A program made the translations under genes and the position numbers. Below, in pieces: positions 2 through 21,842 of a stretch of 64,000 nucleotides of DNA (within the stretch, counting starts at the first letter, position 1; each line of letters starts with the position of its first letter). The notes under the pieces were generated by a model that saw only the letters and a program-made list of their open reading frames with translations, was not told the origin of the DNA and ran no database searches. The DNA comes from Nocardia ninae NBRC 108245 (GTDB lineage: Bacteria; Actinomycetota; Actinomycetes; Mycobacteriales; Mycobacteriaceae). Location: contig NZ_BJXA01000001.1 in the NCBI RefSeq assembly GCF_007990755.1, positions 372,001-436,000 of the forward strand. Reading direction: 5' to 3'.

Positions 2-1627
2 TACGACCAGTACGCGCTCGTGCCCACCGAGCTCGTGGTCGCGCCGACCATTGCCGGCAACACGGTGACGTGGGCACGGGATCGTCTCGACGGCGCGCCC
101 GGATACCAGCTCCGTCTCGAGGTCATCGACGGGTCGGTGGCCCCGAACGGGGCGATTACCGCAGGGCCCGACGGCCGAATCGCACTGCGCGTCACCGCAA
201 TGACCGGCGACACCCCGTTGACGCCGCTGTCCGGATCCGAACTGTTCAACGGCCGTGAGCGCAAGCTCGACGGCGCGAAGAACACGCTCACCTTCCTCAG
301 CTACCGCGAGAAGTTCCTCGCCGGATCGTGGCGCTTCAACACCTATTTCGGCCGCGACACCCTCATCTCGATGATGCTGCTGAAGCCGGTGCTGGCACCC
401 GAGGCGATCGAAGCGGGCATTCGTTCCGTACTGACTCGGCTCGGGCCCGAGGGGCAGGTCGCGCACGAGGAGTCGCTGTCGGAGTACGCGGTGCTCATGA
501 ACAAGCGCAAGAGCGGAACTCTCAGTGGTGCGCCGATTTTCGACTACAACATGGTCGACGAGAACTATCTGCTCGCCCCGGTTGCCGCCGCCCATCTGCT
601 CGACGACCCGGCCGGCGCCGAACGGGCGTCCGCCTATCTACGTGCGCCGCTGGACAACTCGACCGTGTTGCTCGGTCAAGCGTTGGTGCGCAACCTGCGA
701 CTCGTCACGTCGACCACGGCGGCCTTCGCCGACGAGCCTCGATACGGCAACTTGATCGCCCTGCAGCCCGGTCGCGACTCGGGCGAATGGCGGGACAGCG
801 GAATCGGTCTCGGCGGCGGCCGGTACCCCTACGACGTCAACGCCATCCTCGCGCCCGCCGCGCTCGAAGCGACCGCGCGGCTGCTCGACCACGGGGTACT
901 CGATCCCTTCCTGACCGCCGACGATCGGCTGGAACTGTCCTTCGCCGGCGCGGCCGCGAAAACCTGGCGAGCCGAGGCCCCGCGACTGTTCACCGTGACC
1001 CGCGACGCCGAACAGGCCAGGGCCGCCGTCGATTCCTACGCCGGAAAGATCGGTGTCACCGCACAAGACGCGCTCGCCTCGATCGACAACAACCCGATCA
1101 CCTTCCCCGCCATCGCCTTGGACGCCAACGGCGCACCGATACCGATCACGCACTCCGACGACACGTTCGACCTGCTGTTCGGCGCACCGCCGCCCGAGAT
1201 CCTCGACAAGCAGGTGAGCGCCATGTTCCGCCCCTTCCCACTCGGCTTGATCACCGAAGCCGGGTTGGTCGTGGCGAATCCGGTCTTCGCCGACCCCGCC
1301 CTGCAATCCCAGTTCACCAACCACGACTACCACGGCACCGTGGTCTGGTCCTGGGTGCAGGCCGCACTCGCCAGCGGTCTCGCTCGCCAACTCGACCGCA
1401 CCGACCTACCCCAGCCGGTCCGAGACCGGCTGGTGAGCGCCCAGCGCACCCTGTGGGAGGCGATCAAGGCTGCCGAGTCGATGGCCAACTCCGAACTGTG
1501 GAGCTGGCGCTTCGACAACGGCCGCTATCGCGTCGCACCCTTCGGTGCCAGCGAAGCCGATGTCACCGAATCCAATGCGGCACAGCTCTGGAGCAGCGTC
1601 TACTTGGCCGTCACTCCCCCGTCGTGA
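2..1627 (+). CDS. (alpha/alpha)6-barrel glycosidase-like protein, 5'-truncated by window edge
   Basis: The reading frame is open from the first bases (Y-D-Q-Y-A-L), so the gene begins upstream of the window; the GTG at 20 is probably internal. The visible 541 residues include F-N-T-Y-F-G-R-D-T-L near residue 112. That motif resembles the central region of amylo-alpha-1,6-glucosidase/glycogen-debranching and related six-hairpin glycosidases. Acidic clusters (V-D-E-N-Y, D-S-G-E-W-R-D-S-G) suit a sugar-binding barrel. Substrate is unknown. The end overlaps the convergent P450 gene by 17 bp. The fold assignment is by motif only; the specific activity is not claimed. Confidence 0.6.
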   Translation, partial: YDQYALVPTELVVAPTIAGNTVTWARDRLDGAPGYQLRLEVIDGSVAPNGAITAGPDGRIALRVTAMTGDTPLTPLSGSELFNGRERKLDGAKNTLTFLSYREKFLAGSWRFNTYFGRDTLISMMLLKPVLAPEAIEAGIRSVLTRLGPEGQVAHEESLSEYAVLMNKRKSGTLSGAPIFDYNMVDENYLLAPVAAAHLLDDPAGAERASAYLRAPLDNSTVLLGQALVRNLRLVTSTTAAFADEPRYGNLIALQPGRDSGEWRDSGIGLGGGRYPYDVNAILAPAALEATARLLDHGVLDPFLTADDRLELSFAGAAAKTWRAEAPRLFTVTRDAEQARAAVDSYAGKIGVTAQDALASIDNNPITFPAIALDANGAPIPITHSDDTFDLLFGAPPPEILDKQVSAMFRPFPLGLITEAGLVVANPVFADPALQSQFTNHDYHGTVVWSWVQAALASGLARQLDRTDLPQPVRDRLVSAQRTLWEAIKAAESMANSELWSWRFDNGRYRVAPFGASEADVTESNAAQLWSSVYLAVTPPS

Positions 1628-2858
1628 CCGCCGCCTCCTTGCGCAACCGGACAGGCAGGGCGGTGAGGCCACGGATGAGGAGGCTGTGCTGCCAGGTCGG
1701 CGTGGCCGCGTCGGGGGTCAAGGTGAGGTCCGGGAATCGTTGCAGCAGTGCGGTGAAGGCTATTTCGGCCTCGACGCGGGCCAAGGGGGCGCCGACGCAG
1801 AAGTGGATGCCGTGGCCGAAGGCCAGGTGCCCCCCGGCGTCGCCAGTGACGTTCAGTCGGTCGGGGTCGTGGTACCTGGCCGGGTCGTGGTTCGCGGCGG
1901 ACAGGGCGACGTACACGAGTTCGCCCGCCGGGATTTCGACGTCGCCGACCTGCACAGGCTCGGAGGTGTAGCGCACGGTGGCCCAGTCGACCGGGCTGTC
2001 GAAGCGGAGGAACTCCTCCACCGCGGCGGGCACTCCGGACGGGTCCGCGCGTAGTTCCCGAAATTGGGATTCGTTGCGCAGCAATGCGTATGTGCCGTTG
2101 CCGATGAGGTTCACCGTGGTTTCGTGCCCCGCGATGAGCAGCAGGAACGCCATCGAAATCAGTTCGTTCTCGGTCAACTGGTCACCGCCGTCGCGGATCT
2201 GCACCAATCCGGAGAGCAGGTCGTCGCCCGGGTCGGTGCGCTTGGTCTGCACCAGGGCGGCGAGATATTGCGCCATCTCCGCCGAGCAACGGTTCCGTTC
2301 TTCCAGCCCGCCGACCGCCCCGACCAGCACCTTCGTCCAGTGCTGGAACGACTCCCGATCGCTGAACGGCACCCCGAGCAGCTCGCAGATCACGGTGACC
2401 GGCAGCGGCACCGCGAAGGCCTCCAGCAGGTCGACCTCGTCGTGCTCGGCCATCCGATCGAGCAGCGCAGCGGTGATCTCTTCGATGCGCGGCCGCAATG
2501 CCGCCACCCGGCGGCCGGTGAAGGCCTTGTTGACCATTTTGCGCAGCCGGGTATGGTCCGGCGGATCGGTGTTCAGCATGTGCGCGACCAGCGGCAACAC
2601 GGGCGAATCCATCAGCGCCGCAGGATCTTTCTGCCGAAAAACCTCGATCACCTCGGCCAGGTTCTTGTGCATCCTGGGGTCGGCGAGCACAGCCCGCCCC
2701 TCCGCATACCCGATCACCAGCCACTGCGACACGCCGCGCTGAAACTGCACCCGCAGCACCGGCCCGCGCTCCCGCCACCGCCGGTAATACACGTGCGGAT
2801 CCTCGAAGAAATCCGCCCCCAACAGCTCGACCTGATCCTGAGCCTCGATCTCGCCCAT
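1611..2858 (-). CDS. Cytochrome P450
   Basis: A soluble bacterial class I cytochrome P450 of 415 residues, expected to hydroxylate a small molecule using ferredoxin and ferredoxin reductase. Visible hallmarks are the I-helix A-G-H-E-T-T, the K-helix E-F-L-R (ExxR) and the heme loop F-G-H-G-I-H-F-C-V-G with the cysteine ligand. I place the start at the ATG at 2858 (M-G-E-I-E-A-Q) because G-G-G-A-G-G lies just upstream; the longer open frame to 2945 is Gly/Arg-rich and unlike a P450 N-terminus. It is divergent from the NRPS across a 483 bp gap, so it could be a tailoring enzyme of that pathway, but this is inference. No redox partner gene is adjacent. Confidence 0.93.
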   Translation of the reverse strand: MGEIEAQDQVELLGADFFEDPHVYYRRWRERGPVLRVQFQRGVSQWLVIGYAEGRAVLADPRMHKNLAEVIEVFRQKDPAALMDSPVLPLVAHMLNTDPPDHTRLRKMVNKAFTGRRVAALRPRIEEITAALLDRMAEHDEVDLLEAFAVPLPVTVICELLGVPFSDRESFQHWTKVLVGAVGGLEERNRCSAEMAQYLAALVQTKRTDPGDDLLSGLVQIRDGGDQLTENELISMAFLLLIAGHETTVNLIGNGTYALLRNESQFRELRADPSGVPAAVEEFLRFDSPVDWATVRYTSEPVQVGDVEIPAGELVYVALSAANHDPARYHDPDRLNVTGDAGGHLAFGHGIHFCVGAPLARVEAEIAFTALLQRFPDLTLTPDAATPTWQHSLLIRGLTALPVRLRKEAAVTTGE

Positions 2859-3341
2859 CCTGCCCTCCCTGCGTCCCGCGCCCGCTCCGACCGCGCCCAC
2901 CCATGAGACCCCATCGCCGAGTCCCACCCCACCCACCGTACCCACCCCCGAAACCCCTGTATCGCTGATGGATTACTTGCCGACGCAGCGTTCGGATCCA
3001 CTGCTCTGCGCCGTAGCTTTCGAGGGCGCCCGGGAGCCACACCCATCATCAATCGATCATCGATGCGGTTCCCCCGTTCGGCGACTTCACGGCGGACCGA
3101 TCACGCGGTGCTGACCCGACAATTGTTCGGGGATTCGCCGGGGACCGAGGATTTCCCGCAGGTCGCGCGGTGGGTGCCACCGCGCGCAGCGTCGCCATCG
3201 CCGACGCCCACGGGTCGACCCTCCCGAATTCCCTTGCCTCCCTGCGTCATCAGAACATCATCGGGCCCTCCGGCCGCAGCGTCCGAAGTCCGGTTGCGCC
3301 ATAGCATCTGCCGCGGTGTTGGTCCGAGGCGAGGAGATCCG
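2859..3341. promoter_or_regulatory. Divergent intergenic region between the P450 and NRPS genes
   Basis: This stretch of 483 bp must hold the promoters of both divergent genes. An open frame continuous with the NRPS runs through its right half, but it is Pro/Ser/Arg-rich and does not look like an adenylation-domain N-terminus, so I treat it as non-coding. GAGGAG at 3331-3336 is the NRPS ribosome-binding site. AT-richer DNA around 3045-3065 contains overlapping ATCGAT/ATCATC repeats that might be an operator. No mbtH-like gene is hidden here. Confidence 0.5.
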
Positions 3342-6300
3342 GTGAGTGCTGCCGGTGGGACATTCCGATGCGATGTGACGGACGGGATGTGGCAGTCCTT
3401 TTCCGGGCAGGTGAGCAGTCGGCCGGGTGCTACCGCGCTCGTCGACGGTGACGGCAGCCTGACCTATGCCGAGCTCGCCGCGCTGGTCGACGACTTCGCA
3501 GATTGCTTGCGCGCGAACGGGGTTCGGGTCGGCGACCTGGTGGGGATTCGGTTGCCTCGTGGGCGGGCGGCGGTCGTCGCCATCCTCGCCGCGCTGCGGT
3601 CGGGGGCGGCGTATGTGCCGCTCGATCCGGCGTATCCGGCGGCTCGGCTGGCCGCGATGATCGAGGATGCGCGACCGCGGGCGCTGGTCACCCAGGACGG
3701 TGTGGTCGCCTTGGCCGGCGGCGTACCTCGGCCGGATGCCGCGTATGTGATCTTCACGTCGGGGACGACGGGACGGCCGAAGGGTGTGGTGGTTTCCCGG
3801 CGGGCGCTGGCGGCGTTCTGTGCGGCCGCGATCGATCGGTATGGGCTCGATGCCGATGATCGGGTGCTGCAATTCGCGTCGCTGAGCTTCGACGCAAGCG
3901 TCGAGGAGCTCTTTCTGCCGCTGAGTTGCGGCGCGGCGGTGGTGCTTCGCGACGAGGACATGATCAGCCGTCCGGACCTTTTCCTCGACCGCTGCCTGGC
4001 GGGCGGCGTGACCGTCCTCGACCTGCCGACCGCTTACTGGCATGAACTGGTGGCCGCACTCGATCGGGGTGAGGCCGTGCTGCCCGCGACGTTGCGGCTC
4101 ACCATCATCGGTGGCGAGTCGGCTCGTCCCGACGCGGTGCGCCGCTGGCAGACGGTGGCGGGCGGTTCGGTGCGGCTGCTCAATACCTATGGGCCCACGG
4201 AAACCACGGTTGTCGCGACCGTCGCGGACCTCACTCGATGGGCGGGCGACGCGGTGCCGATCGGCACCCCGCTGGACGGGGTGACCTGCCGGGTGGTCGA
4301 CGCCGACGGTAACCCGGCGCCGGTGGGTGAACTGGTGATCGGTGGCCGCACGGTCGCCGACGGCTATCTGAACAACCCCGACCTGACCGCTGAGCGTTTC
4401 CGGCCGGGGCCCGACGGCACGGAGTACCGCACCGGTGACCGCGTCCGCTGGCACGACGATCAGCTCGAATACCTTGGCAGACTCGATGATCAGGTCAAGA
4501 TTCGCGGCTTCCGCGTCGAGCCGGGCGACATCGAGTCAGCCCTACGCGCCATCCCCGCCATCGATGATGCCGTCGTGTCGGTCGACCAGCGCGACGAGCG
4601 GGCCATCCTGATCGGCCATGTCGTGACGGCAACGGGCACCGATCTGACGGAGATCCGGGCGGCACTGCGCGAAACCTTGCCCGCATACCTCGTGCCCGCC
4701 GAACTCATTCGGCACGAGCGTCTTCCGCTGACCGCGCAAGGCAAGATCGATCACGCTGTACTCATCAGCGACGGACGCGCCCGCACTGTCGCGTGGACAG
4801 GCACGTCCGCCGAAGCGGAGATCGCCACACTGTGGGAGTCGCTGCTCGGGATCCCGATAACGGTCCCGGACAACGACTTCCTCACACTCGGCGGCGACTC
4901 GCTCACGGCTGTGCGCCTCTGCGCGGCCCTGCGCCACCACCACGGCATCGACCTCACCCTGAGCGAGTTGTATGCCGCGCCCACCATCGCGGCGATCGCG
5001 GCTCGACTGCGGCACAACATCATCCAGGACCAGCACACCACCGCCGCGGTGCCGGAGAATGTCCCGCTACGCCTGAGCCCACTCCAGCGCGACTTCTGGG
5101 TGGCCGAACAGGTGTGCACCGGACTGCCGGCGCATACCTTGCGTATCCGCTACCGGTGGAACGGCCGGGTAGACGCCGCAATGCTCGCGCACAGTCTCGC
5201 TGCGCTGGCCCGTCGTCATCCGCTGCTCAGATCTCGTTTCCTCGACGACGGTGCGGAACCGAGCATGGTCATCGATCCCGACGCGACGATTCCATTGCTC
5301 GAATCCGCAACCGACAGTATCGATCTGCGCAACGGACCGATCGCGTACGCAGCACTGGTCCGCGGCGACACTGCGGACGAGGTGGTTTTCGTCGTCCACC
5401 ACCTGGCGTTCGACGGATGGTCGGCGGGCATCGTCGGCAACGAACTCGCGCAGCTGTATCGGGCCGGCGACTTGCCAACGCCCACACCACTACCCGACCT
5501 CGCTTCCCTGCCGGCAGTCGATGCAACCTTGATCGCCTACTGGAGAGCACGTTTCGACGGCGCCGATCTCGACCTGGAACTGCCCGCCGACCGTCCGCGC
5601 CCGGCGGCCCGATCGTTCGCCGCGGCGCGCGTCTGCGTCGATGTCGACCCGGTGTTGCTCGAACGCCTCCGTTCCTACGCGCAGAGCCGCCGCGCCAGCC
5701 TGTTCATGGCACTGCTGGCAAGTGTGCAGACAGTGCTGACCCGCTACACCGGCCGAACCGACATCACCGTGCTCGCTCCGGTCGCCTGCCGAGCCACTCC
5801 CGGTCTGGAATCACTGGTCGGTCCGCTGCTCAACATTCTGCCGGTCCGCGGAAACGTCTCCGGCGAACCGTCGTTCGCCGACCTGCTCGACCGGGTCCGC
5901 GACGCGGTCCTGCGCGATCTCGATCATCGAGACCTCGCACTACCTGATCTGGTCGACGCCATCGCCCGGCCGGGCGCCGGGAATCGGAACCGGATCAGCC
6001 CGGTCACGCTGACGGTCCACAACACTCCGGAGCCAGGCGATCACACCGTCAGGTACGCCGGTGAACTCGCCCCCGCCGCCACCATGGTCGACGTCGCCAT
6101 CGGCCTGGATTTCCCCCTCGACGGCCCGGTCCTCAGCATCGACTACGCCACCGAATTGTTCGATGCCCCAAGGATGGCGGCCCTGCTCGATCACTTGCTG
6201 ACCGTGCTCGCCGCCGCCGTCACCGATCCGCATACTCCGGTGACCCGACTCCCGATGCTCACCGACTCCGAACGCCGTCGGATCGTGCACGAATGGAACG

Positions 6301-9300
6301 ACAGCGCCCGCCCCCAACTCACCACCACCGCCGTCCACCAACTGTTCGAGCATTGTGCCGCAACAACTCCCGACGCACCGGCACTCACCTTCCGCGGCGA
6401 CACCATCAGCTACGCCGAGCTGAACCACCGGGCCAACCGGCTCGCCCGCCGGCTGCGCGCCGAGGGGGTCGCGCCGCGCGACTTCGTCGCGATCTGCCTC
6501 GACCGCGGTTTCGACCTGTTCATCGCGGTGTGGGCGGTGCTCAAAGCCGGTGCCGCGTATGTGCCGCTCGACCCGGCATACCCGCGGGATCGGCTCGACT
6601 ACATGCTCGCCGACTGCGGCGCGCAGCTCGTCATCGACGCCGCGTACCTCACCGGCGCCACCCCGGACGACAGCAGCGACCTGCCGTTACGCAACACGGC
6701 GACCGACCCGGCCTACCTGATCTACACCTCCGGCTCCACCGGCAAACCCAAAGGCGTCGTGGTGAATCACGCCAACCTGGTGCACGCCGTCGGCATGTGG
6801 CGCCACGCCTACGAGCTACGGCCGGAGTGGACGTACCAGCAGGCTGCCAGCTTCTCGTTCGACATGTTCGTCGGTGAGACACTGCGCGCGCTCACCACCG
6901 GCGGCCGACTGGTGATCGTGCCACGGGAGACCCTGCTCGATGCCGCCGACCTCTACACGCTGATGCGTACCGAAGGCGTGCAGTGCACCGAACTCGTTCC
7001 GGCGGTGCTGCGCACCCTGCTTGCCCATGTCGAGGAGCTCGGACAGCGACTCGACTTCGTCCGATTGCTGATCGGCGGCGGTGAGGAATGGCGGGTCCGC
7101 GAATACGAGCTGGCACGCCGACTTGTCGGCCCGGACAATTCGGTGGTCAACGCCTACGGTGTCACCGAGGTCACCGTCGACAATGTCTGGTTCACCGGAT
7201 CGGTCGACCATCTGCCCGGCAATGCCCCGCTGCCGATCGGCGTGCCGTTCCCCAACAATCGCGTCTACGTCCTCGACGCGCATCGCGCACCGGTGCCCGC
7301 CGGGATCGTGGGCGAGCTGTATCTCGGCGGCGCCGGTGTGACGCCCGGCTATCATCATCGGCCTACGCTCACCGCCGATCGGTTCGTGCCCGATCCGTTC
7401 GCACCCGAACCCGGTGCTCGCATGTACGCCACCGGTGACTCCGCCCGGTGGCGGCTCGACGGCCAGGTCGATTTCCTCGGGCGGCTCGACGGTCAGGTCA
7501 AGGTCAACGGCTACCGGATCGAGATCGGCGAGATCGAGGCCGCGCTCGGCGCCGTGCCCGAGGTGGTCGGCTGCGCGGTCACCCTGCACACGCCGTCGTC
7601 CGCACTCGCCCGGTTGATCGGTTACGTCGTCACCCGGGACGGCTCGGCCGCCGACGAGACTGCGATCCGCGAGGCGCTGGCGACCGAATTACCGACGCAC
7701 ATGGTGCCTGCCCGAGTGCTCACGCTGGCCGCGCTCCCGTTGACGCCGAACGGGAAACTCGACCGGAACCGGCTACCCGCACCGCCCGACGACATCGATC
7801 CGGGCACGGGACCAGGACCGCGCACGCCGACTGAACAACACATCGCGGCGGTGTGGTGCGAGGTGCTCGGCGTCGCGGACCTCGGCATCGACGACACCTT
7901 CTTCGCCCTCGGCGGCGATTCGTTCGCCGCGCTGAAGGTGATCCGGCGAATCGAGCCGACACCGGCGTTGGTCGAGCTCTACCGCTACCCCACGGTGCGG
8001 CGGCTGGCCGCGTTGCTCGATGAACGCGATCCGGGGCCGCGCACCGAACGCCGAATGTTGCACCGGCTCACCGACAACGACGCCCGACTCGACGGCATAA
8101 CGGTGGTCGCGGTGCCCTACTCCGGCGGCAGCGCCGTCGCCTATCAGCCGCTCGCCGAGGCACTTCCAGCGAACTGGGCGCTGTACGCGGTGGAACTACC
8201 GGGTCACGACCGGGCGCATCCGGACGAGGAATTGCTGCCTGCCGCGGTGGTCGCCGAGCTGATCCTGGCCGAGCTGCCCACGGTCAGCGGTCCAATTCTG
8301 TTGTACGGCCATTGTTTAGGTGTTGCGGTGACGGTCGAGTTGGCTCGGCAGGCCGAGGCGGCGGGCATCGAACTGGCCGGTGTCGCACTGGGCGCGGGCT
8401 TTCCGACCGCGCGGCTGCCCGGTCGGTTCTTCGACTGGTTCTATCGGCTGATTCCGACCGACCGATTCACCTCCGACCGTGAATATTTGACCTACCTGCG
8501 CGGCCGTGGCGGCTTCGTCGATATCGATGACGCGCAGCAGCAGGCATTCGTGCTGCGCAACGTCCGCCATGACGCCCGCGACGCCGAGGAGTACTTCACT
8601 GCCGCCTACACCGACCCGCGGCCACCGCTGAAGACGCCGGTGCTTGCGGTCGTCGGCGCGAAGGATCGGGTCACCGAGCACTACGTGGAACGCCATCACG
8701 AATGGCGGCACTTCAGCGACGGACCGCTCGATCTGGCCGTACTGCCCAGAGCCGGGCACTTTTTCGTGAAGAGCCACGCCGAGCCACTGGCCGAGGCGCT
8801 GGTCGGTTTCGCCGAGCGTGCACCCGAACCCCTTGCGCCGGAGCCGATTCCCCCGGCTGGGCCGTCACCCAGCCTGTCCCGGTTCGCGCTCGTCGCCCTC
8901 GGGCAGTTCGTCTCCATGGTCGGCAGCGGGCTCAGCGCCCTCGTGCTCAGTATCTGGGTGTTCCAGCAAACCGGCTCGATCACCGACTTCGCCGTCGTCA
9001 ACGCGGTCGGCTTGCTGCCGGGCATCCTCGTCAGCCCGGTCGCGGGCGCCGTCGCCGATCGCTGGGACCGCCGCCGGGTGATGCTGGCCAGCGATGCCGC
9101 CGCCGCGGCGGCGATGAGTGTGCTTGCGGTGCTGGTGTTCACCGGCGGGCTACAACTGTGGCAGATCTACCTCACCGTCACGGTCACCTCGATCGCCGGC
9201 GCCTTCCAGCGACCCGCGTATCTCGCCGCCGTCGCGCAGCTCGTGCCCAAGCGCTACCTCGGGCACGCGAACGGCATCAGCCAACTCGGCGTCGGTGTCG

Positions 9301-10205
9301 GGCTGGTGTTCGCGCCGATGCTCGGGGCCGGGCTGATCGGCTTGATCGGCATCGCGGGCGTCATCCTGCTCGACATGGTGACATTCACCATCGGCGTCGT
9401 CACGCTGCTGCTTGTCCGGTTTCCGAACTTGCTGTTCCATCGCCGAGACGAAACGTTCCGCAGCGAGATCGTCAACGGGTGGCGGTATATCACCCGCCGC
9501 CCCGGCATGCGCGCCGCCCTGCGGTTCTTCGTCATCGACCACGCGTTCTACACCCTCGGTTTCGCCGTCATCACCCCGATGCTGCTGCTCGAACAGTCCC
9601 CCGCGGTGCTCGGAACCGCCCTCGGCGCAGGCGGACTCGGTGGTTTGGCGGGCAGTCTCGTGATGGGTCTGTGGGGCGGCACCGCCCGGCGGACCAACGG
9701 ATTGATCATCTTCATGGGCATCGGAAGCATCGGCATGACCGTCGTCGGATCGGGTAGTTCGCCGGTCTTCGTCATCGCGGGCATGTTCCTGCTGACCTTC
9801 GGTGAATCGCTGGCCGAGGGGCACTGGATCGCGGTGGTGCAGACCAAGGTCGGATTCGAACTACAGGGTCGGGTCCTGTCCATCTTCATCACCGTGATGA
9901 TGCTGACCATGCCGCTGGGCTACCTGCTGGTCGGCCCGCTCGCGCAAGAGTACGTGCGCCCGCTGCTGGAACCAGGCGGCCCGCTCGCCGGGACCGTCGG
10001 CCTGCTCATCGGGGTCGGCCCCGGCCGCGGGCTCGCCATGCTCGTCGTCCTCAGCGGCCTGCTGCAACTCGCCTGGGCGGTGCGTGGCTGGCTGGATACC
10101 CGCCTGCGCCTGCTCGAAGACCACCTCCCCGACGCCCTGCCACCCGCCGAGATCAACTCACGGGACGACCTGCAACGCCTCGCCGACGCTCAACTTCTCC
10201 GCTGA
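3342..10205 (+). CDS. Bimodular NRPS (A-T-C-A-T-TE) fused to an MFS exporter
   Basis: A 2287-residue protein starting at GTG 3342 behind GAGGAG. Domains by approximate residue: A1 15-475 (F-T-S-G-T-T-G-R-P-K-G; Y-G-P-T-E-T; G-K-I-D), carrier T1 485-560 (L-G-G-D-S-L), condensation 575-970 (H-H-L-A-F-D-G), A2 990-1480 (Y-T-S-G-S-T-G-K-P-K-G; Y-G-V-T-E; G-K-L-D), carrier T2 1500-1560 (L-G-G-D-S-F), thioesterase 1585-1825 and a multi-helix MFS domain 1840-2255 with the loop motif A-D-R-W-D-R-R-R. The order predicts loading of one amino acid, condensation with a second, and release of a dipeptidyl product. The thioesterase nucleophile motif is G-H-C-L-G, with Cys in place of Ser, plus G-A-K-D-R and R-A-G-H-F for Asp and His. 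Synthesis, release and export therefore sit in one membrane-anchored polypeptide. Substrates are not established. The gene is 10 bp from the downstream PLP gene. Confidence 0.93.
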   Translation: MSAAGGTFRCDVTDGMWQSFSGQVSSRPGATALVDGDGSLTYAELAALVDDFADCLRANGVRVGDLVGIRLPRGRAAVVAILAALRSGAAYVPLDPAYPAARLAAMIEDARPRALVTQDGVVALAGGVPRPDAAYVIFTSGTTGRPKGVVVSRRALAAFCAAAIDRYGLDADDRVLQFASLSFDASVEELFLPLSCGAAVVLRDEDMISRPDLFLDRCLAGGVTVLDLPTAYWHELVAALDRGEAVLPATLRLTIIGGESARPDAVRRWQTVAGGSVRLLNTYGPTETTVVATVADLTRWAGDAVPIGTPLDGVTCRVVDADGNPAPVGELVIGGRTVADGYLNNPDLTAERFRPGPDGTEYRTGDRVRWHDDQLEYLGRLDDQVKIRGFRVEPGDIESALRAIPAIDDAVVSVDQRDERAILIGHVVTATGTDLTEIRAALRETLPAYLVPAELIRHERLPLTAQGKIDHAVLISDGRARTVAWTGTSAEAEIATLWESLLGIPITVPDNDFLTLGGDSLTAVRLCAALRHHHGIDLTLSELYAAPTIAAIAARLRHNIIQDQHTTAAVPENVPLRLSPLQRDFWVAEQVCTGLPAHTLRIRYRWNGRVDAAMLAHSLAALARRHPLLRSRFLDDGAEPSMVIDPDATIPLLESATDSIDLRNGPIAYAALVRGDTADEVVFVVHHLAFDGWSAGIVGNELAQLYRAGDLPTPTPLPDLASLPAVDATLIAYWRARFDGADLDLELPADRPRPAARSFAAARVCVDVDPVLLERLRSYAQSRRASLFMALLASVQTVLTRYTGRTDITVLAPVACRATPGLESLVGPLLNILPVRGNVSGEPSFADLLDRVRDAVLRDLDHRDLALPDLVDAIARPGAGNRNRISPVTLTVHNTPEPGDHTVRYAGELAPAATMVDVAIGLDFPLDGPVLSIDYATELFDAPRMAALLDHLLTVLAAAVTDPHTPVTRLPMLTDSERRRIVHEWNDSARPQLTTTAVHQLFEHCAATTPDAPALTFRGDTISYAELNHRANRLARRLRAEGVAPRDFVAICLDRGFDLFIAVWAVLKAGAAYVPLDPAYPRDRLDYMLADCGAQLVIDAAYLTGATPDDSSDLPLRNTATDPAYLIYTSGSTGKPKGVVVNHANLVHAVGMWRHAYELRPEWTYQQAASFSFDMFVGETLRALTTGGRLVIVPRETLLDAADLYTLMRTEGVQCTELVPAVLRTLLAHVEELGQRLDFVRLLIGGGEEWRVREYELARRLVGPDNSVVNAYGVTEVTVDNVWFTGSVDHLPGNAPLPIGVPFPNNRVYVLDAHRAPVPAGIVGELYLGGAGVTPGYHHRPTLTADRFVPDPFAPEPGARMYATGDSARWRLDGQVDFLGRLDGQVKVNGYRIEIGEIEAALGAVPEVVGCAVTLHTPSSALARLIGYVVTRDGSAADETAIREALATELPTHMVPARVLTLAALPLTPNGKLDRNRLPAPPDDIDPGTGPGPRTPTEQHIAAVWCEVLGVADLGIDDTFFALGGDSFAALKVIRRIEPTPALVELYRYPTVRRLAALLDERDPGPRTERRMLHRLTDNDARLDGITVVAVPYSGGSAVAYQPLAEALPANWALYAVELPGHDRAHPDEELLPAAVVAELILAELPTVSGPILLYGHCLGVAVTVELARQAEAAGIELAGVALGAGFPTARLPGRFFDWFYRLIPTDRFTSDREYLTYLRGRGGFVDIDDAQQQAFVLRNVRHDARDAEEYFTAAYTDPRPPLKTPVLAVVGAKDRVTEHYVERHHEWRHFSDGPLDLAVLPRAGHFFVKSHAEPLAEALVGFAERAPEPLAPEPIPPAGPSPSLSRFALVALGQFVSMVGSGLSALVLSIWVFQQTGSITDFAVVNAVGLLPGILVSPVAGAVADRWDRRRVMLASDAAAAAAMSVLAVLVFTGGLQLWQIYLTVTVTSIAGAFQRPAYLAAVAQLVPKRYLGHANGISQLGVGVGLVFAPMLGAGLIGLIGIAGVILLDMVTFTIGVVTLLLVRFPNLLFHRRDETFRSEIVNGWRYITRRPGMRAALRFFVIDHAFYTLGFAVITPMLLLEQSPAVLGTALGAGGLGGLAGSLVMGLWGGTARRTNGLIIFMGIGSIGMTVVGSGSSPVFVIAGMFLLTFGESLAEGHWIAVVQTKVGFELQGRVLSIFITVMMLTMPLGYLLVGPLAQEYVRPLLEPGGPLAGTVGLLIGVGPGRGLAMLVVLSGLLQLAWAVRGWLDTRLRLLEDHLPDALPPAEINSRDDLQRLADAQLLR

Positions 10206-10215
10206 AAGGCCGCCA

Positions 10216-11127
10216 GTGCCCGCCTCACCCCTGACCACCGCACCGACCGACGCGTACGCCACGCCGCTCATCGATGCGGGCGAACTCGTGCCGGGAACCC
10301 GAATCCTGATCAAGGACGAAACCCGTTACGCCTCAGGCAGTCACAAGGAACCGGCCGCCCGTGCGGTAGTCAGCCGGGCCATCGCCGACGGATACCGGCG
10401 AGTCGTCATCGCCACCTGCGGCAACTACGGCCGCGCCATGGCCATGGCCTGTGCGGCGGCCGAACTGGCCTGCACCGTCGTGCTGCCGACCGGGTGGAGC
10501 GATGGTGGCGCGTTCATGCGCGACGCCGGTGCCGACGTGCACCTCGTCCCGGGCAGCTATGAGGATGCCGTCGACGAATCCCGCTCTCTCGCCACCGAAG
10601 ACGGCTCCATCGACGGCAACGTCGACGGGCCGTACGTGGACGCGGTCTTCGACGGGCACGGCGTCGTCGTGCACGCGCTGCGCGCCGCGCTGACGGAACC
10701 ACCTGCCGCGCTGTGGATCCCGGTCGGCAACGGCACCACCATCATCGCGGTACACCGGCAGCTTCGAGCCGTCGGCTGGTCGGTACCGATCAACGGCGTC
10801 GGCTCCGCAGCCAACAACCCCGTCGTGACCAGCTGGCCCGGCGAGTACCGGATGCTGCCACCGGACGGTGTCGTCACCACAGACCACAATCAGCCGCTGG
10901 TCAATTGGCATGCGCTGCAAGGCCCCGAGGCGATGGCCGCGGTCGCCGCGACCGGCGGCGCGATCTTCGGCGCCGACGACACCGAACTGCTGGCCGCCAG
11001 GGACCTGCTCGCCGAGCACGGCGCTCGGCCGACCCCCTCCGGCGCGGTCGCCCTCGCAGGACTGCTCGGCCAGGCCCGCCGCACCCCGCTCACCGGCACC
11101 CACGTCGTCCTGCTCAGCGGCCGCTGA
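10216..11127 (+). CDS. PLP-dependent fold-type II enzyme (threonine synthase/cysteine synthase-like)
   Basis: A 303-residue enzyme of the tryptophan synthase-beta superfamily. Lys44 in S-G-S-H-K-E-P-A-A-R is the likely Schiff-base lysine. T-C-G-N-Y-G-R-A forms the substrate carboxylate loop, and P-V-G-N-G-T-T matches the phosphate-binding glycine loop. Such enzymes do beta- or gamma-eliminations and replacements. I start it at GTG 10216, 10 bp after the NRPS stop, behind GAAAGG. Operon position suggests it makes an unusual amino acid (for example a diamino or dehydro amino acid) for one NRPS module, which is inference. It is shorter than housekeeping threonine synthases (about 350 residues or more) and is unlikely to be the primary thrC. 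Confidence 0.82.
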   Translation: MPASPLTTAPTDAYATPLIDAGELVPGTRILIKDETRYASGSHKEPAARAVVSRAIADGYRRVVIATCGNYGRAMAMACAAAELACTVVLPTGWSDGGAFMRDAGADVHLVPGSYEDAVDESRSLATEDGSIDGNVDGPYVDAVFDGHGVVVHALRAALTEPPAALWIPVGNGTTIIAVHRQLRAVGWSVPINGVGSAANNPVVTSWPGEYRMLPPDGVVTTDHNQPLVNWHALQGPEAMAAVAATGGAIFGADDTELLAARDLLAEHGARPTPSGAVALAGLLGQARRTPLTGTHVVLLSGR

Positions 11128-11146: not shown

Positions 11147-12058
11147 ATGACCCACCCTGCTGCCGGGCTGCTGTTCGCCCGCGCCCGGACCAGCGCCGCC
11201 GACGAGCGCGTTTTCCTCACCAAACTCGCCGTACTCGGCGTACTCACCGCCCTCGGCGTGGCCCTCGCGCTGCGCCCCGAGCCGTTCGCACTGATCGCCG
11301 GAGCGCTGCTGCTGGCCGCGATGTACACCCACGCCGTCGAACTCCAACATCAAGCGTTGCACCACAGCGCTTTTCGCGCCGCCTGGCCGCACCGCCTCGT
11401 CGGCGTGCCGCTCGGTCTGCCACTGCTGGTCGTCTACACCAACTACCGGGTCCGCCACCTGCAGCACCACCGCTACCTCGGCACCCCGAACGACACCGAG
11501 TTCTTCGGTTTCGACACCCGCACACCGATCACCGCCGCCCTACTGCTGCGCGGCATGTTCGACTACGCGCGGCTGCTCGTCGTTGTTCGCGATGTGCTGC
11601 GCGCGGCGACCGGACGCTGGCGGTACGAACACGGTCACCTCAGCGCCACCATGCGCCGCCGAGCCATCACCGAACACCTCGTCCTGGGCGCCCTACTGCT
11701 CGCCGCGGTAACCCTCGCCGCCACCGGCCGGCACGACCTCGTCCTCCGAATCTGGCTGCTGCCCTTACTATTCGCCGTCCCCATGCACTTCCTGGTCGAA
11801 CTCCCCGAACACCTCCTCTGCGACACCGACACCACCGACGTCCTCCGCAACACCCGCTCCATCCGCGGCAGCCGTCTCACCACCTGGTTCACCAACGGCA
11901 ACAACCTGCACATCGAACACCACGCCGCAATGTCAGTCCCCCTCAACCAACTCCCCGCCCGCCACCCCGAGGTCCAGCAACGCGCCGTCCACGTCGAACG
12001 CACCTACCTCGATTTCTATCGGACGCTGTGGCGCGAGCTTCGAGCCGCCCGGCGGTAG
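11147..12058 (+). CDS. Membrane di-iron fatty acid desaturase/hydroxylase family protein
   Basis: A 303-residue integral membrane protein with three histidine boxes typical of membrane desaturases and hydroxylases: H-Q-A-L-H-H (about residue 66), R-H-L-Q-H-H (about 103) and H-I-E-H-H (about 263). Hydrophobic segments surround the boxes. It begins 19 bp after the PLP gene and is the last gene of the NRPS operon. In such contexts these proteins can oxidise an acyl chain or a carrier-bound or free amino acid, so a tailoring role is plausible. It is unlike the long acyl-CoA desaturase at 58-59 kb in length and box spacing. The substrate is unknown. Confidence 0.85.
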   Translation: MTHPAAGLLFARARTSAADERVFLTKLAVLGVLTALGVALALRPEPFALIAGALLLAAMYTHAVELQHQALHHSAFRAAWPHRLVGVPLGLPLLVVYTNYRVRHLQHHRYLGTPNDTEFFGFDTRTPITAALLLRGMFDYARLLVVVRDVLRAATGRWRYEHGHLSATMRRRAITEHLVLGALLLAAVTLAATGRHDLVLRIWLLPLLFAVPMHFLVELPEHLLCDTDTTDVLRNTRSIRGSRLTTWFTNGNNLHIEHHAAMSVPLNQLPARHPEVQQRAVHVERTYLDFYRTLWRELRAARR

Positions 12059-12286: not shown

Positions 12287-13789
12287 TCAGCCACCGTTGA
12301 CCGGCCCGGTCGGCACCTTGGCGCCCGCTGATCCGGGTCGGTTGATGTACACCGTGACCGGGGCGGTGCTGTTGCCTTGCACGGTGACCACTCGCGCCCC
12401 GGTGGGCGAGGTGATGGTGCCGCCGTCGGCGCGGACCTCGTAACCGTTGGGGTAGTGCAGGTCGGAGACGTAGATTTCGGTGGGGGCGGCGAGGGGTTGG
12501 GGGGTGTAGCGGTAGGCGAAATCGCCGGTGGCGGGGTCGAAGGTGAGGCGGCCGGGGGTGCCTGCGGTGGCTCGGGGGTAGGTGCGGACCAGGTCGCGGC
12601 CGATGTCGCCGAGGAAGGGGTCGGGTTTGGGGGCGCCGGGGCCGAAGCTGGAGGCGTAGTGCCAGTATTGCCAGCCGATGAAGCGTTCGTCGGCTCGGGT
12701 GAGGGTGTTGCGCAGTACCGTTGCGTCGCCGTCGCCGAATTCCGTTACCAGCGTAGGGATTCCGGTCCGTTTGGTGAAGGAGTCGATGTTGCCCCAGGTT
12801 TTGTCCTGTTGGACCGGGCATACGCCGCGTAGTTCTTCGGGCAGGCCGAGGTAGATGGCGAGTTGGCTGGGGATGCAGTAGTCGTGCGGTGCGAAGACGA
12901 TGCCGGGTGAGGTGATCGGTGGGTTCTTGCCCAGGTTGGTCGGCATGGTTTCGTTCCAGGTGACGTTCGGTTCCCAGAAGACCGGGATGTTCGCGTTGCG
13001 GGCACGTACCGCATCGGTCAGTTTCTGCATGGCCGCTTGATATTTGGTGTCGAACCGGGGGCAGCCGTTTGGGAAGCAGGTATGGAACGCCGATCCGGGC
13101 CATGGTTCGTTCATCAGCTCGATACCGAGGACGCCGGTGCGGCCCTTGACCTTCTCGGCCAGTGCCGCCAGCGCCGTGCCGAGATGGTCGAGGATGCCAT
13201 TGCTGTTGTCCCACACCTCATCCCAGCCACGGTTCATGCTGGGCATCAGGTAGTAGAGCGGGAAGCCGGGGTTCGGTTCCCAGGCGGCCGGGCGCGCACG
13301 CAGCGACCATTCCGGAAATCCGTTGCCGCCCCAGATCTTCGACAGTCCGTCCTGGTGATTGTCGAGCAGCGTGTAGATGCCTTGGGCCGCAAGGGTATCG
13401 ATCACTCTGACGAGACGTTCGAGGTAGGCGGTGTCGACGACGCCGCGGGTGGGCATCAGTCCGGCGAAGCTCACACCCAAGCGCACGGTGTTGAATCCGT
13501 GCCGGGCGAGCAGTGCCGCGTCCTGGTCGGTCACGGTGAAGCCGTCGCCGGGCTCGACATAAGGAGCTTGCTTGTCGACATTGTTGACTCCGTGCAGCAG
13601 CACCTTGCGGCCCTGCGCGTCGACGAGATAACTACCCTCGGCCTGAATCTGACTGAGCGCCGGCGGGGCGGCTTGCCCCGAAGTCGGGACCAGCACCGAA
13701 CACCCGATTGCGGCGACGGCGGCGCCGATCGCGCACTGCCGGGCACGCGCCCGTACCGCGGCCATCGTCCTCATCATCATTGTTCGCAT
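12287..13789 (-). CDS. GH5 family glycosidase, endoglycoceramidase-like, secreted
   Basis: A 500-residue secreted glycoside hydrolase family 5 protein. The N-terminus has a signal peptide with an arginine-rich n-region, a hydrophobic core and a likely cut near S-G-Q-A-A. L-M-N-E-P-W-P-G carries the acid/base Glu and T-E-F-G-D-G-D the nucleophile Glu; L-L-D-N-H-Q-D-G is also typical. The C-terminal 100 residues look like the beta-sandwich found in endoglycoceramidases, which release the glycan from glycosphingolipids in Rhodococcus. A steryl-glucosidase activity is an alternative. GGGGAAG precedes the ATG at 13789, which I prefer to the ATG 27 bp upstream. The gene runs opposite to both neighbours. 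Confidence 0.82.
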   Translation of the reverse strand: MRTMMMRTMAAVRARARQCAIGAAVAAIGCSVLVPTSGQAAPPALSQIQAEGSYLVDAQGRKVLLHGVNNVDKQAPYVEPGDGFTVTDQDAALLARHGFNTVRLGVSFAGLMPTRGVVDTAYLERLVRVIDTLAAQGIYTLLDNHQDGLSKIWGGNGFPEWSLRARPAAWEPNPGFPLYYLMPSMNRGWDEVWDNSNGILDHLGTALAALAEKVKGRTGVLGIELMNEPWPGSAFHTCFPNGCPRFDTKYQAAMQKLTDAVRARNANIPVFWEPNVTWNETMPTNLGKNPPITSPGIVFAPHDYCIPSQLAIYLGLPEELRGVCPVQQDKTWGNIDSFTKRTGIPTLVTEFGDGDATVLRNTLTRADERFIGWQYWHYASSFGPGAPKPDPFLGDIGRDLVRTYPRATAGTPGRLTFDPATGDFAYRYTPQPLAAPTEIYVSDLHYPNGYEVRADGGTITSPTGARVVTVQGNSTAPVTVYINRPGSAGAKVPTGPVNGG

Positions 13790-14048
13790 TGGCTTCCCCG
13801 ATCCGGTGGCCGACAACAGGCTTAATGGTCACACGTCCAGTTCGAGCCAAACCAGCCATCGCACATCCGGGGATTCCCCACTTGGGCACCAGACGACATT
13901 TACCAAGTGTTTGCCCAATTCAGCTGCCCGCGATCATGGGATGTTTGTTTGCGTTGCGCACACTGTCGCTCCGGACCGTTCGGGGTGACGGCACGAATGC
14001 GCGACCACCTGCGAGTTGTGATGACTCTCAGCAGTACGAGAGGACCCG

Positions 14049-15212
14049 ATGCCAGCCCTGAAGAAGCGGTCACGCTTGTCCGAACATACCGAGCCGGTCA
14101 GTAGCGGAGTCGAGCAGATACGCCTCGACGAAGTGTCGTGCCGGCACGTTACGCACCGCGATCCATTGTCCGCCGACGCATTGCTGGCGCGGCTGCCCGA
14201 ACTGAATGCCGCCGCCGATGTGCCGCAACTCGTCACTTCGTTTCGAGAGCTGTTGTGGCGGGCCCGGGAAATAGAACTGACTGACGTCGCCGACCGCCTG
14301 GCCGCGATGCGCGATGTCGGAATGTTGCTCTCCTCCCTACAGCGCCACGGTGTCGAACCGCTCGAAGCCGCACCCGAGGGCACGGACGCATTGCTCGCGT
14401 GGGGGCTCTCGGTGGACATGGTCCCGCGCGACACCGTCCTGCATTACGGCGTGTGGAACCCGCGCGGCAAACGTCAGCGGATGTTCCTCGGAGACCGCGA
14501 GGAGAACGTCATCATCGACGCCGTCCGAGTCGGCACCATCCTCATCGACGAAATAGCCCCGACCATCGCCGGATTGGCCGAAATCCACCCCCGCGATGCC
14601 GCATTCGGCGAAATCTGCCACACCACGGCGGACCAATTGGAGACGCTGCCGGAGCTGATGAACGACGTCTATCGAAACGTCGACCCGGTCGACTTCTACG
14701 CCGCTCGACTGCGCCCCTTCATGGCGGATGTGGTCATCGCCGACCGCCAGTACTACGGTCCCGCACCCGTACACGTCCCCCTCTACCTCATCGACCGCCT
14801 CGTCTGGTCCGCCGACCACCCCGACGCCGACCTCCGCTACTTCCAGCACGACATAGTCAAATACGCTCTCCCCCATTGGCGTCGACTCTTCGAGCGCACC
14901 GAAGGCACCCCCTCCCTGATCACCCGCCTCATCCGCGAATTCGACCGCCCCACCGGCCCACCCCCCACCAAACTCGCCGACGCCATGGACGGCGCGATCC
15001 GAATCATGAACGCCCTGGTCACCTTCCGCACCCTGCACAACCGCATGGCAGGCGGCGCCTACACCGACGCCACCCGCCACCCCACCGGCATGGCCGGCGT
15101 AAGCCCCGGTCTCCTGGACCACATCCTCACCCTCACCCACGACTGCGCCACCCGCACCCGAGCCCGCCGCACCGGAATCCGCACCCACTCTCGGGATCCG
15201 CACTCGCTCTGA
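14049..15212 (+). CDS. PrnB-like heme enzyme (monodechloroaminopyrrolnitrin synthase family, IDO/TDO superfamily)
   Basis: A 387-residue protein that aligns by eye along its length with PrnB, the pyrrolnitrin enzyme that rearranges 7-chlorotryptophan. Matching stretches are A-M-R-D-V-G-M-L-L-S-S-L-Q-R-H-G, R-D-T-V-L-H-Y-G-V-W-N-P, F-Y-A-A-R-L-R-P-F and Y-Y-G-P-A-P-V-H-V-P-L-Y. F-R-T-L-H near residue 336 matches the PrnB segment that carries the proximal heme histidine. PrnB belongs to the indoleamine/tryptophan dioxygenase superfamily. There is no tryptophan halogenase, PrnC or PrnD gene in the window, so the substrate may be an unchlorinated indole. Family assignment is good; the reaction is unknown. 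The 3' end is part of a long inverted repeat. Confidence 0.78.
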   Translation: MPALKKRSRLSEHTEPVSSGVEQIRLDEVSCRHVTHRDPLSADALLARLPELNAAADVPQLVTSFRELLWRAREIELTDVADRLAAMRDVGMLLSSLQRHGVEPLEAAPEGTDALLAWGLSVDMVPRDTVLHYGVWNPRGKRQRMFLGDREENVIIDAVRVGTILIDEIAPTIAGLAEIHPRDAAFGEICHTTADQLETLPELMNDVYRNVDPVDFYAARLRPFMADVVIADRQYYGPAPVHVPLYLIDRLVWSADHPDADLRYFQHDIVKYALPHWRRLFERTEGTPSLITRLIREFDRPTGPPPTKLADAMDGAIRIMNALVTFRTLHNRMAGGAYTDATRHPTGMAGVSPGLLDHILTLTHDCATRTRARRTGIRTHSRDPHSL

Positions 15213-19875: not shown

Positions 19876-20766
19876 TCACACGGTGAGTTCGGCACCGTCG
19901 GGCAGGACCTCCACACCTGCTTGCGCCACCAGTGCACTGGCTGTGGAGGAGGGTTCGAGGAGCGGGTTGGTGTTGTTGAGGTGGGTGTAGATTCGGCGCA
20001 ATCCTGGGTGGCGGGTGAGGGCGGCGAGGGAGCCGCTGGGGCCGGCTATGGGGAGGTGGCCCATGAGGGATTGGCCGGCGTCCGGGTCCTGGGAGTGGAC
20101 GGCCGCGCCGAGTTCTTGCGCGCTGAAGAAGGTGCCGTCGAGTAGTGCGCAGTCGGCGGAGGCCAGCAGGTTGTCCAGTGCAGCAGGCCAATTCGCTAGG
20201 CAGGGCGCGTACACGAATACGCCGCCGGTCACCGGGTCTTCGATGCGGAGGGCGGTCACCCAGTGGATGGAGGGCGACGGCGTCGCGATGTACTTCGGCG
20301 CCTTGGCGCTGATCGGGTGAGCGAAAACGCGGAGCCCGCCGGCGAGTTCGAAGCCGGGCACGGTGCTGTCCTGCCACTTCCATGGGCGGTAGCGAGTGAG
20401 CAGGCCGCGCAGCGGCAGGAGTGCGTCCAGCACTACGGGGCTGGCGTAGACGGTCAGATCGGCGGCTCCGCGCAGGATAGCCAGCCCCATCGTGTGGTCC
20501 ACCTCGGCGTCGGTGAGGAGCACGCCGCGCACGGGCGTTTCCCGCGGTCCCGGTCCGGGGCGGAGGGCAGGTGTCGCGAGCAGTTGGGTGCGAATATCGG
20601 GAGAAGCGTTGAGCAGCCACCAATCTCGCGAGTTGCCGCTGATGGCCACGCACTCTTGGCTGCGCGACGGCAGCTCGCCGTTACGGGCACTCAGGCAGAG
20701 CTCGCAGGCACAGTCCCACTGCGGGAACCCGCCTCCGGCAGCGGTACCGAGCAGGATCACTTTCAC
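19876..20766 (-). CDS. pqqB: PQQ biosynthesis protein PqqB
   Basis: A 296-residue metallo-beta-lactamase-fold protein needed for pyrroloquinoline quinone synthesis, thought to oxidise the tyrosine part of the PqqA-derived intermediate. Typical features are the start V-K-V-I-L-L-G-T-A-A-G-G-G-F-P-Q-W, the C-A-C-E-L-C metal-site cysteines, N-A-S-P-D-I-R and L-T-D-A-E-V-D-H-T-M-G. The GTG start overlaps the pqqE stop by 4 bp, so it is translationally coupled as the last gene of the operon. Confidence 0.95.
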   Translation of the reverse strand: MKVILLGTAAGGGFPQWDCACELCLSARNGELPSRSQECVAISGNSRDWWLLNASPDIRTQLLATPALRPGPGPRETPVRGVLLTDAEVDHTMGLAILRGAADLTVYASPVVLDALLPLRGLLTRYRPWKWQDSTVPGFELAGGLRVFAHPISAKAPKYIATPSPSIHWVTALRIEDPVTGGVFVYAPCLANWPAALDNLLASADCALLDGTFFSAQELGAAVHSQDPDAGQSLMGHLPIAGPSGSLAALTRHPGLRRIYTHLNNTNPLLEPSSTASALVAQAGVEVLPDGAELTV

Positions 20767-21842
20767 GGCGCCTGCGCCCGCATGGTGAAAGCCGTCGCCG
20801 CCTCGCTCAGTGCGGCGTCGACGAGCGGCCGATCCGGCGACAGCCCGCACACCGGGTCGGTGGCCGCCGCGTCACCGGTGAACTGGAACGCTTGGCACCG
20901 GCAGCCGCCGAAGTCGGTGAAGCGTTCGGGACAGGAACGGCAGGGTTCGGGCATCCACGAGGTTCCGCGAAAAGCGTTGAACGCCTTCGATGAATACCAG
21001 ATCTCGGCCAGCGGTCGTTCGAGCACGTTCTCCACCGGCAACGTGGAAATCACCGAAGCCCCCGGGCACGGCAGTACGTTCCCTCCGGGCGTGACGGTCA
21101 GTTGCCTTCTCCCCCACCCATCCATACACGGCTTCGGCCGGTCCGCGAAGTAGTCCGCGACCACGTACACCAAATCGGGCCCGCCCGCGTACTTCTCCCG
21201 AGCCCGCTGCATCGCCTGTCGCGCATTGTCGAGCTGAATCGCGCTGGGCAGCAAAGCGGCTCGATTACGCAGCCCCCACCCGTAGTACTGCGTGTTGGCC
21301 AACTCGATCCGATCCGCGCCGAGACCGACGGCGAGGTCGACGATCTGCTCGACCCGATCGATATTCCCCCGATGCAACACAACATTCACAGTGAGCGGCA
21401 GTCCTGCCCCTGTGATCGCCTCGGCCGCATCAAGTTTCAGCGCGTGCACCCGAGCGCCCGCGATGCGATCGGCAGACTGTGGATCCGCGTCCTGCATCGA
21501 GAGCTGAACGTGGTCGACCCCGCGCTCCGCGAGCTGCCGCGCCCGCTCAGCAGTCAGTCCGACACCGCTGGTGACCAGGTTGACGTAGGCCCCGAGTCCC
21601 CGTGCGTGCGCGACCAAGTCGGGCAGATCCCGTCGAGACAACGGCTCACCACCGGAGAAATGCATCTGCACCACTCCGAGCGCACGAGCCTGGGTGAGCA
21701 CATCGCACCACTGCTCAAACGTCAATTCCCCAGCACGCGAAACGAGTTCGACGGGATTCGAGCAGTACGGGCAATGCAGCGGGCAACGATGAGTCAGCTC
21801 GACCAGCATGCCGAGCGGCGCCTCGACCGACGTCTCAGTCAT
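20763..21842 (-). CDS. pqqE: PQQ biosynthesis radical SAM enzyme PqqE
   Basis: A 359-residue radical SAM/SPASM enzyme that cross-links Glu and Tyr of PqqA, the first chemical step of PQQ synthesis. C-P-L-H-C-P-Y-C is the CxxxCxxC cluster motif. H-F-S-G-G-E-P-L is the SAM-binding GGE motif. The C-terminal Cys-rich SPASM region (C-M-D-G-W-G-R; P-C-R-S-C-P-E-R-F; G-G-C-R-C-Q-A-F) is complete. It starts at ATG 21842, overlapping the pqqD stop by 8 bp. Confidence 0.97.
   Translation of the reverse strand: MTETSVEAPLGMLVELTHRCPLHCPYCSNPVELVSRAGELTFEQWCDVLTQARALGVVQMHFSGGEPLSRRDLPDLVAHARGLGAYVNLVTSGVGLTAERARQLAERGVDHVQLSMQDADPQSADRIAGARVHALKLDAAEAITGAGLPLTVNVVLHRGNIDRVEQIVDLAVGLGADRIELANTQYYGWGLRNRAALLPSAIQLDNARQAMQRAREKYAGGPDLVYVVADYFADRPKPCMDGWGRRQLTVTPGGNVLPCPGASVISTLPVENVLERPLAEIWYSSKAFNAFRGTSWMPEPCRSCPERFTDFGGCRCQAFQFTGDAAATDPVCGLSPDRPLVDAALSEAATAFTMRAQAP

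Follow-up and report, generated by a model that had tools for sequence, protein, structure and literature searches.

Peptide synthetases and the exporters of their products are normally encoded by separate genes, so that the exit of a product is rarely tied to its making. In Nocardia ninae NBRC 108245 (genome of 9.7 Mb in 204 contigs), the stretch of 64,000 nucleotides analysed here, hereafter the window, holds a gene in which a non-ribosomal peptide synthetase (NRPS), a thioesterase and an MFS exporter are read as one chain, which raises the question of what such a chain would release and what the two steps gain from being joined. The reading favoured here, with a probability of roughly 0.55, is that of a three-gene operon for a cationic dipeptide of a Lys-like and an Orn-like residue, released through cyclisation by a Cys-thioesterase, exported by the attached MFS domain and served by two tailoring enzymes encoded downstream (Table 1).

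On the forward strand, an open frame extends from 3063 to 10205, within which a GTG codon preceded by a GAGGAG site is the likely start and a TGA (10203-10205) the stop. In the deduced protein, Pfam domains succeed one another as AMP-binding, PP-binding, Condensation, AMP-binding, PP-binding, Thioesterase and MFS_1, each scoring above its cut-off and both AMP-binding and PP-binding being matched in two stretches. The order A-T-C-A-T-thioesterase-MFS in a single chain, as proposed in the earlier note, was thus recovered, and so was the continuous frame from 8810 to 8890 through a Pro-rich linker, since the DNA holds no stop there; the transporter, given at about 415 residues, is indeed complete but comes to about 440 residues with its tail (1848-2287).

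Table 1. Features of the locus, numbered along the window.
Feature	Position	Strand	Basis
NRPS-TE-MFS gene, 2287 aa, GTG start	3342..10205	+	open frame, Pfam, relatives in genus
Adenylation domain A1, pocket DAEDIGTVV, Lys-like	3399..4781	+	Pfam, pocket code
Carrier domain T1, PP-binding residues 493-556	4818..5009	+	Pfam
Condensation domain, residues 577-981, motif HHLAFDGWS	5070..6284	+	Pfam; motif read in sequence
Adenylation domain A2, residues 1002-1472, pocket DMGEIGAVD, Orn-like	6345..7757	+	Pfam, pocket code
Carrier domain T2 (GGDSF), limits approximate	7830..8021	+	Pfam PP-binding, sequence
Thioesterase, ObiF-like, residues 1587-1819; Cys1658, Asp1775, His1806	8100..8798	+	Pfam, PDB match ObiF1, triad columns
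Codon of putative nucleophile Cys1658	8313..8315	+	alignment with ObiF1 Cys
Pro-rich linker, thioesterase to MFS	8826..8882	+	continuous reading, linker length
MFS exporter domain, 12 predicted membrane segments and cytosolic tail	8883..10202	+	MFS_1, MFS_3, hydropathy
PLP enzyme (PALP), threonine synthase relative, GTG start	10216..11127	+	Pfam, equivalog score, relatives
FA_desaturase-family hydroxylase, distant GntB relative, ATG start	11147..12058	+	Pfam, equivalog score, relatives

A sequencing frameshift at 8.8 kb, on which the earlier note considered that its reading could founder, is excluded because the fusion is also open in four other genomes of the genus and in all 80 loci retained from a species-genome collection (the best 80 of 344 related places). 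That assembly or a frameshift artificially joined two genes is next to inconceivable when the same open fusion recurs in 5/150 genomes of the genus, window included, and in 80/80 of these loci. With a query covering thioesterase and MFS, 8 of the 150 genus genomes matched at E <= 1e-40: in five the complete fusion is read in a single frame (the four besides the window having 86-97% identity, and 78-95% when the whole-length NRPS-TE-MFS protein is compared), the match is confined to the MFS in two (G101 and G110), and only a C-terminal piece is left in the last (G102). The ORF concerned in the latter (L024:9545-10879) holds about 150 residues of the C-terminal part of the MFS at 60% identity, followed by what appears by eye to be methyltransferase-like sequence, and is probably what decay has left of such an NRPS. 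Among the best 80 of 344 collection loci, 3 of which are the same Nocardia as in the genus search, the named organism closest to the query part is Nocardia suismassiliense (97%).

Beyond the genus, occurrences of the cassette are few but widely spread. In 301 sampled genomes of the family, no match besides the window itself was found at 1e-50, and 7 of 396 genomes of the phylum matched at 1e-60, namely the window (fused) and six in the MFS only. The best 80 of 344 collection loci come from Nocardia, Micromonospora, Catenuloplanes, Pseudonocardia, Amycolatopsis, Planotetraspora, Nonomuraea, Streptosporangium, Dactylosporangium, Embleya and Microbacterium, among others, as well as from a SAR324 MAG and a Moraxellaceae MAG. 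In the class, 394 genomes were searched with the thioesterase alone, so that selection was not made by the MFS, and all 64 matches were inspected, window included: 55/64 thioesterase domains are fused to an MFS and 9/64 are unfused. With 55/64 domains in the class and 80/80 in the best 80 of 344 fused, the idea that the architecture is singular finds no support; it is a recurrent actinobacterial cassette, and fusion is the prevailing state in this thioesterase lineage. Five genomes of one family in the class (f91; G978, G1032, G1053, G1060 and G1115) have five thioesterase matches each, and those inspected have an MFS attached.

The most telling hint at a reason for coupling release to export comes from the thioesterase, whose unusual Cys and position-II Asp went unmentioned in the earlier note. 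In a sequence search of the PDB, its best solved relative is ObiF1 (130 bits, the next reaching 67), at 36% identity over 248 positions, and ObiF1 likewise comes first for a clade II sister cassette of Micromonospora (L054; 110 bits vs 63). ObiF forms beta-lactones. In the alignment, Cys1658, lying in GHCLG, falls on the ObiF1 nucleophile Cys1146, Asp1775 at position II and His1806 fall on Asp1254 and His1284, and position I is an Ala, where EntF-like domains have an Asp and ObiF1 a Gly. In the available part of its description, the obafluorin NRPS ObiF1 (PDB 6n8e) has the triad Cys1146, His1284 and Asp1254, with Gly1173 at the site of the EntF-like Asp (PMC6668435), that is the same Cys, His and position-II Asp as the window, which has it as best match. 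Among the NRPS thioesterases compared in the accessible sections of a second source, the position-II Asp occurs only in ObiF1 and SulTE, as in some type II thioesterases, and the Cys domains of known structure that carry this triad are those of ObiF1 and SulM, both forming four-membered rings (PMC11298585). Judging from the Cys nucleophile, the position-II Asp and ObiF1 as best match, the domain is of the obafluorin ObiF type. The SulM thioesterase of sulfazecin shares the Cys nucleophile and position-II Asp described in the same excerpts (PMC11298585), with a weaker similarity to the window (37 bits). Release of a beta-lactam in the SulM manner was rejected, as the Gln-Cys-Asn signature given for it in these excerpts (PMC11298585) is replaced by His-Cys-Leu in the window. 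No sulfotransferase, as in a SulM-type cluster, was found among the 12 window genes scanned with Pfam. The PDB entries 8w2c and 8w2d were taken to be SulTE.

The nucleophile is a Cys in 50/55 fused thioesterases of the class (thioesterase-only search) and in 78/80 of the collection (best 80 of 344), a Ser being found in the other 5/55 and 2/80; of the nine unfused domains of the class, five have a Cys (one of them, L115, at a contig end) and four a Ser. With Cys in 5/9 of the unfused domains, these counts show no tight link between the Cys and the fusion. The Ser-bearing fused thioesterases (L164, L168, L170, L175 and L177 in the class, L048 and L100 in the collection) constitute a natural comparison set for the role of the Cys. 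Position-II Asp and His are present in all 64 class thioesterases and in all 135 fused domains (55 from the class and the best 80 of 344, which may overlap). Plain hydrolysis of the peptide, where the fusion would merely keep synthetase and pump equal in number and at the membrane, is a rather doubtful alternative: related type II thioesterases (RifR-like) with the same Asp position do hydrolyse, as far as the available parts of both sources go (PMC6668435, PMC11298585), and the linker, of about 20 Pro-rich residues in the window up to the first matched MFS residue, ranges from 16 to 123 residues across loci, so that no rigid hand-off interface is suggested, but the prevalence of the Cys in both fused sets and the four-membered rings made by the solved Cys domains with the same triad argue against it.

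As for the descent of the domain, its profile gave 3 matches in 349 Pseudomonadota genomes: the Moraxellaceae MAG also present in the collection set, a protein built like ObiF, in the order TE-MbtH-AMP-binding (L190), and a Cys domain that is not fused (L191). A tree of 43 thioesterases, where L180 and L181 are unfused, places ObiF together with unfused domains (88/83) and apart from the fused set. The available text on ObiF1 has it end at an MbtH-like domain, with an extra aryl-A domain in the P. fluorescens form and no MFS, whereas the window has its MFS at that place (PMC6668435).

What the thioesterase would receive was approached through the adenylation pockets, read by a motif-based script with positions following the GrsA convention. 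The A1 pocket, DAEDIGTVV, was taken as Lys-like and the A2 pocket, DMGEIGAVD, as Orn-like; in the PDB search, A1 also matches CmnG and epsilon-poly-lysine synthase domains, not as best. According to Pfam, the first module is devoid of a C domain, so the N-terminus of the peptide would be free. Among the sister cassettes, a DVWH.. pocket (e.g. DVWHISLID), presumably Ser-type, was read for the last A domain in 51 of the best 80 of 344 loci; 7/80 show the A1-type DAED.. code, the last A domain having been missed, 9/80 have no code, and the tally rests on the collection set because 43/64 class rows are without code, many loci being too short. The nearest solved domains of the L054 example are from Txo1 and Txo2, which we take to be teixobactin modules for Ser. 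The preceding modules of Ser type would fit a beta-lactone, because an ObiF-type thioesterase needs a Ser or another beta-hydroxy residue. The last residue of ObiF1 is a known beta-hydroxy amino acid, whereas the one predicted in the window is Orn-like and would have to bear a beta-hydroxyl to serve for a beta-lactone; a hydroxylase-family gene is present in the operon. The thioesterase might instead use the Orn-like residue to close a delta-lactam, or the free N-terminal amine to close a diketopiperazine, with no strained ring; the A2 pocket and the free N-terminus lend themselves to such products, and this alternative, though unlikely, deserves to be kept in mind, but the sister cassettes mostly follow Ser-type modules, without side-chain amine (best 80 of 344), and the thioesterase has its closest match in a beta-lactone former.

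Regarding the exporter, MFS_1 is matched over residues 1851-2193 with 111.1 bits for a cut-off of 33.4, MFS_3 is matched as well, and a PDB search by sequence gave no match for this domain. Hydropathy averaged over 42 aligned sequences reveals 12 clear membrane segments and a weak one before the last; with the window sequence alone and a stricter setting, 8 segments pass. In the averaged profile, loops rich and poor in K/R alternate, the predicted cytosolic ones being rich, as expected if both ends are cytosolic, which should put the assembly line with its thioesterase at the inner membrane face. The release at the membrane put forward in the earlier note stands insofar as this predicted topology would place the thioesterase on the cytosolic side; channelling from thioesterase to pump, the direct passage that the note also suggested, is only a possibility. 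Across diverse aligned proteins, GAVADRWDRRRVM, which we take to be MFS motif A, is largely invariant. Thioesterase and MFS distances among 58 fused proteins are correlated (r = 0.93; 0/1000 permutations as high), hence the two domains have been inherited as a unit and have travelled together, and their means are alike (0.51 for the thioesterase and 0.52 for the MFS). In a tree of 72 MFS domains rooted at midpoint, one branch (100/99) parts 14 free-standing ones (12 loci) from the 58 fused ones, and these sequences suggest that the pair perhaps stems from a single fusion.

Unfused members of the same MFS family, with 36-42% identity to that of the window, are encoded directly behind NRPS genes in one Trichormus (L143) and two Nostoc plasmids (L144 and L146). 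The NRPSs concerned are not fused and end in canonical Ser thioesterases (GGWSMGG or GGYSFGS); a pump of this family does not, therefore, need a Cys-thioesterase. That these Ser-thioesterase NRPSs manage with a separate pump would agree with the MFS of the window being a passenger, joined to the thioesterase by chance and kept without a role in the pathway, or exporting something else. This is very improbable, however, for a domain with 12 intact membrane segments, with motif A residues invariant across diverse proteins and with a conservation equal to that of the thioesterase. In the enterobactin system, EntF and EntS associate a release module with an MFS exporter as two genes, with a Ser thioesterase and a trilactone product; the window resembles them in having a release module and MFS export and differs by its single gene and Cys-thioesterase. 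EntS presumably belongs to MFS_3, the family also matched by the window.

Fusions of TE and MFS are annotated within one predicted protein in fungal PKS and PKS-NRPS models, and the portions of these sources that are available report no function for them (PMC9495618, PMC11057048). A full-text search of the open-access literature yielded no description of a bacterial NRPS fused to an MFS. The earlier note knew of no characterised pathway with exactly this order together with the two downstream genes; this agrees with the literature searched, where none was found, and we know of no characterised system of this NRPS-TE-MFS kind. The architecture itself is visible in databases, where proteins of this sort are at times labelled 'non-ribosomal peptide synthetase/MFS transporter' by automatic annotation; the system is best described as an NRPS whose ObiF-like Cys-thioesterase is joined to an exporter.

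The architecture, its conservation, the catalytic residues and the predicted topology are established here; the substrates, the cyclisation, the type of ring and this very product as cargo of the pump are inferred. A1 would load the first carrier and A2 the second, the C domain would join the Lys-like and Orn-like residues, and the dipeptide would pass from the second carrier onto Cys1658, from which it would be released by intramolecular ring closure and not by hydrolysis. The ring would be a beta-lactone if the last residue has a beta-hydroxyl, and otherwise a lactam or a diketopiperazine. The attached MFS domain would then export the product and would also anchor the synthetase to the inner membrane face. 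Counted against this reading are the position of ObiF outside the fused set in the thioesterase tree, the Orn-like last residue predicted in the window, the Ser of the few fused domains mentioned above, the Cys of 5/9 unfused domains, the cyanobacterial MFS beside canonical Ser-thioesterase NRPSs, and the position-II Asp that type II editing thioesterases share according to the accessible part of PMC11298585.

A bolder proposal, speculative and rather improbable, is that Cys-thioesterase and MFS form a cassette by which reactive products with a strained ring are released and exported, the beta-lactone being closed at the cytosolic mouth of the pump and handed over directly, with the fusion acting as self-protection. 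Were it true, an electrophile would exit without free passage through the cytosol, and the TE-MFS signature would flag a large unexplored set of actinomycete beta-lactone clusters. In any event, a conserved synthetase-pump chain makes the hand-off from synthetase to pump directly testable, and the combination of Cys, position-II Asp and attached MFS could serve as a genome-mining signature for cyclised, possibly beta-lactone, peptides. In the open-access literature searched, no assigned compound was found for the cassettes of Nocardia, Micromonospora, Streptosporangiaceae, Embleya and others.

The two genes downstream of the NRPS probably make or modify a building block. The PLP enzyme scores 166.6 bits for an equivalog cut-off of 266 bits as a true threonine synthase (PRK06381), and the hydroxylase 40.7 bits for a cut-off of 380 bits as a true GntB arginine gamma-hydroxylase; both identities were rejected, leaving a relative and a distant relative, respectively. 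The hydroxylase gave no match to the PDB by sequence. Threonine synthase converts a gamma-substituted amino acid into a beta-hydroxy amino acid, and for this reason the threonine-synthase-like and GntB-like enzymes could together yield a beta-hydroxy diamino acid. All three genes of the operon, for NRPS, PLP enzyme and hydroxylase, occur together in 10 genomes (window, L023, L027-L032, L034 and L044), and the PLP enzyme is found without the hydroxylase in the clade members L033, L035-L038, L045 and L017. An A-T-reductase gene lies upstream in L033 and L017 (the two scanned), and aldo/keto reductases occur in L033 and L040, clustering having grouped homologues from L035 and L036 with them. The PLP enzyme has no match in L040, and neither downstream gene was detected at 1e-10 in the 61 loci L046-L106, within the DNA compared. 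L041 has instead, beside the same NRPS type, a cystathionine-beta-synthase-like gene and a lysA-like (diaminopimelate decarboxylase) gene (L041:2800-5101, minus strand; homologues in L042 and L043). At a guess, this pair could supply a lysine analogue, e.g. thialysine, for the first module.

Around the operon, the P450 gene at 1611-2945 (minus strand), divergent from the NRPS, was rejected as a core gene: it adjoins the NRPS in L020 and L021, and no match was found in L022 and L023. A PrnB-family protein (PF08933, 103 bits), from a family named after pyrrolnitrin biosynthesis, is encoded outside the operon at 14049-15212 (plus strand) and has a 75% homologue near the cluster in L021. On the minus strand, the window further encodes a glycoside hydrolase family 5 protein with a GH5 C-terminal domain (12287-13816), as well as a radical SAM/SPASM protein beside a metallo-beta-lactamase-fold protein (19876-21962).
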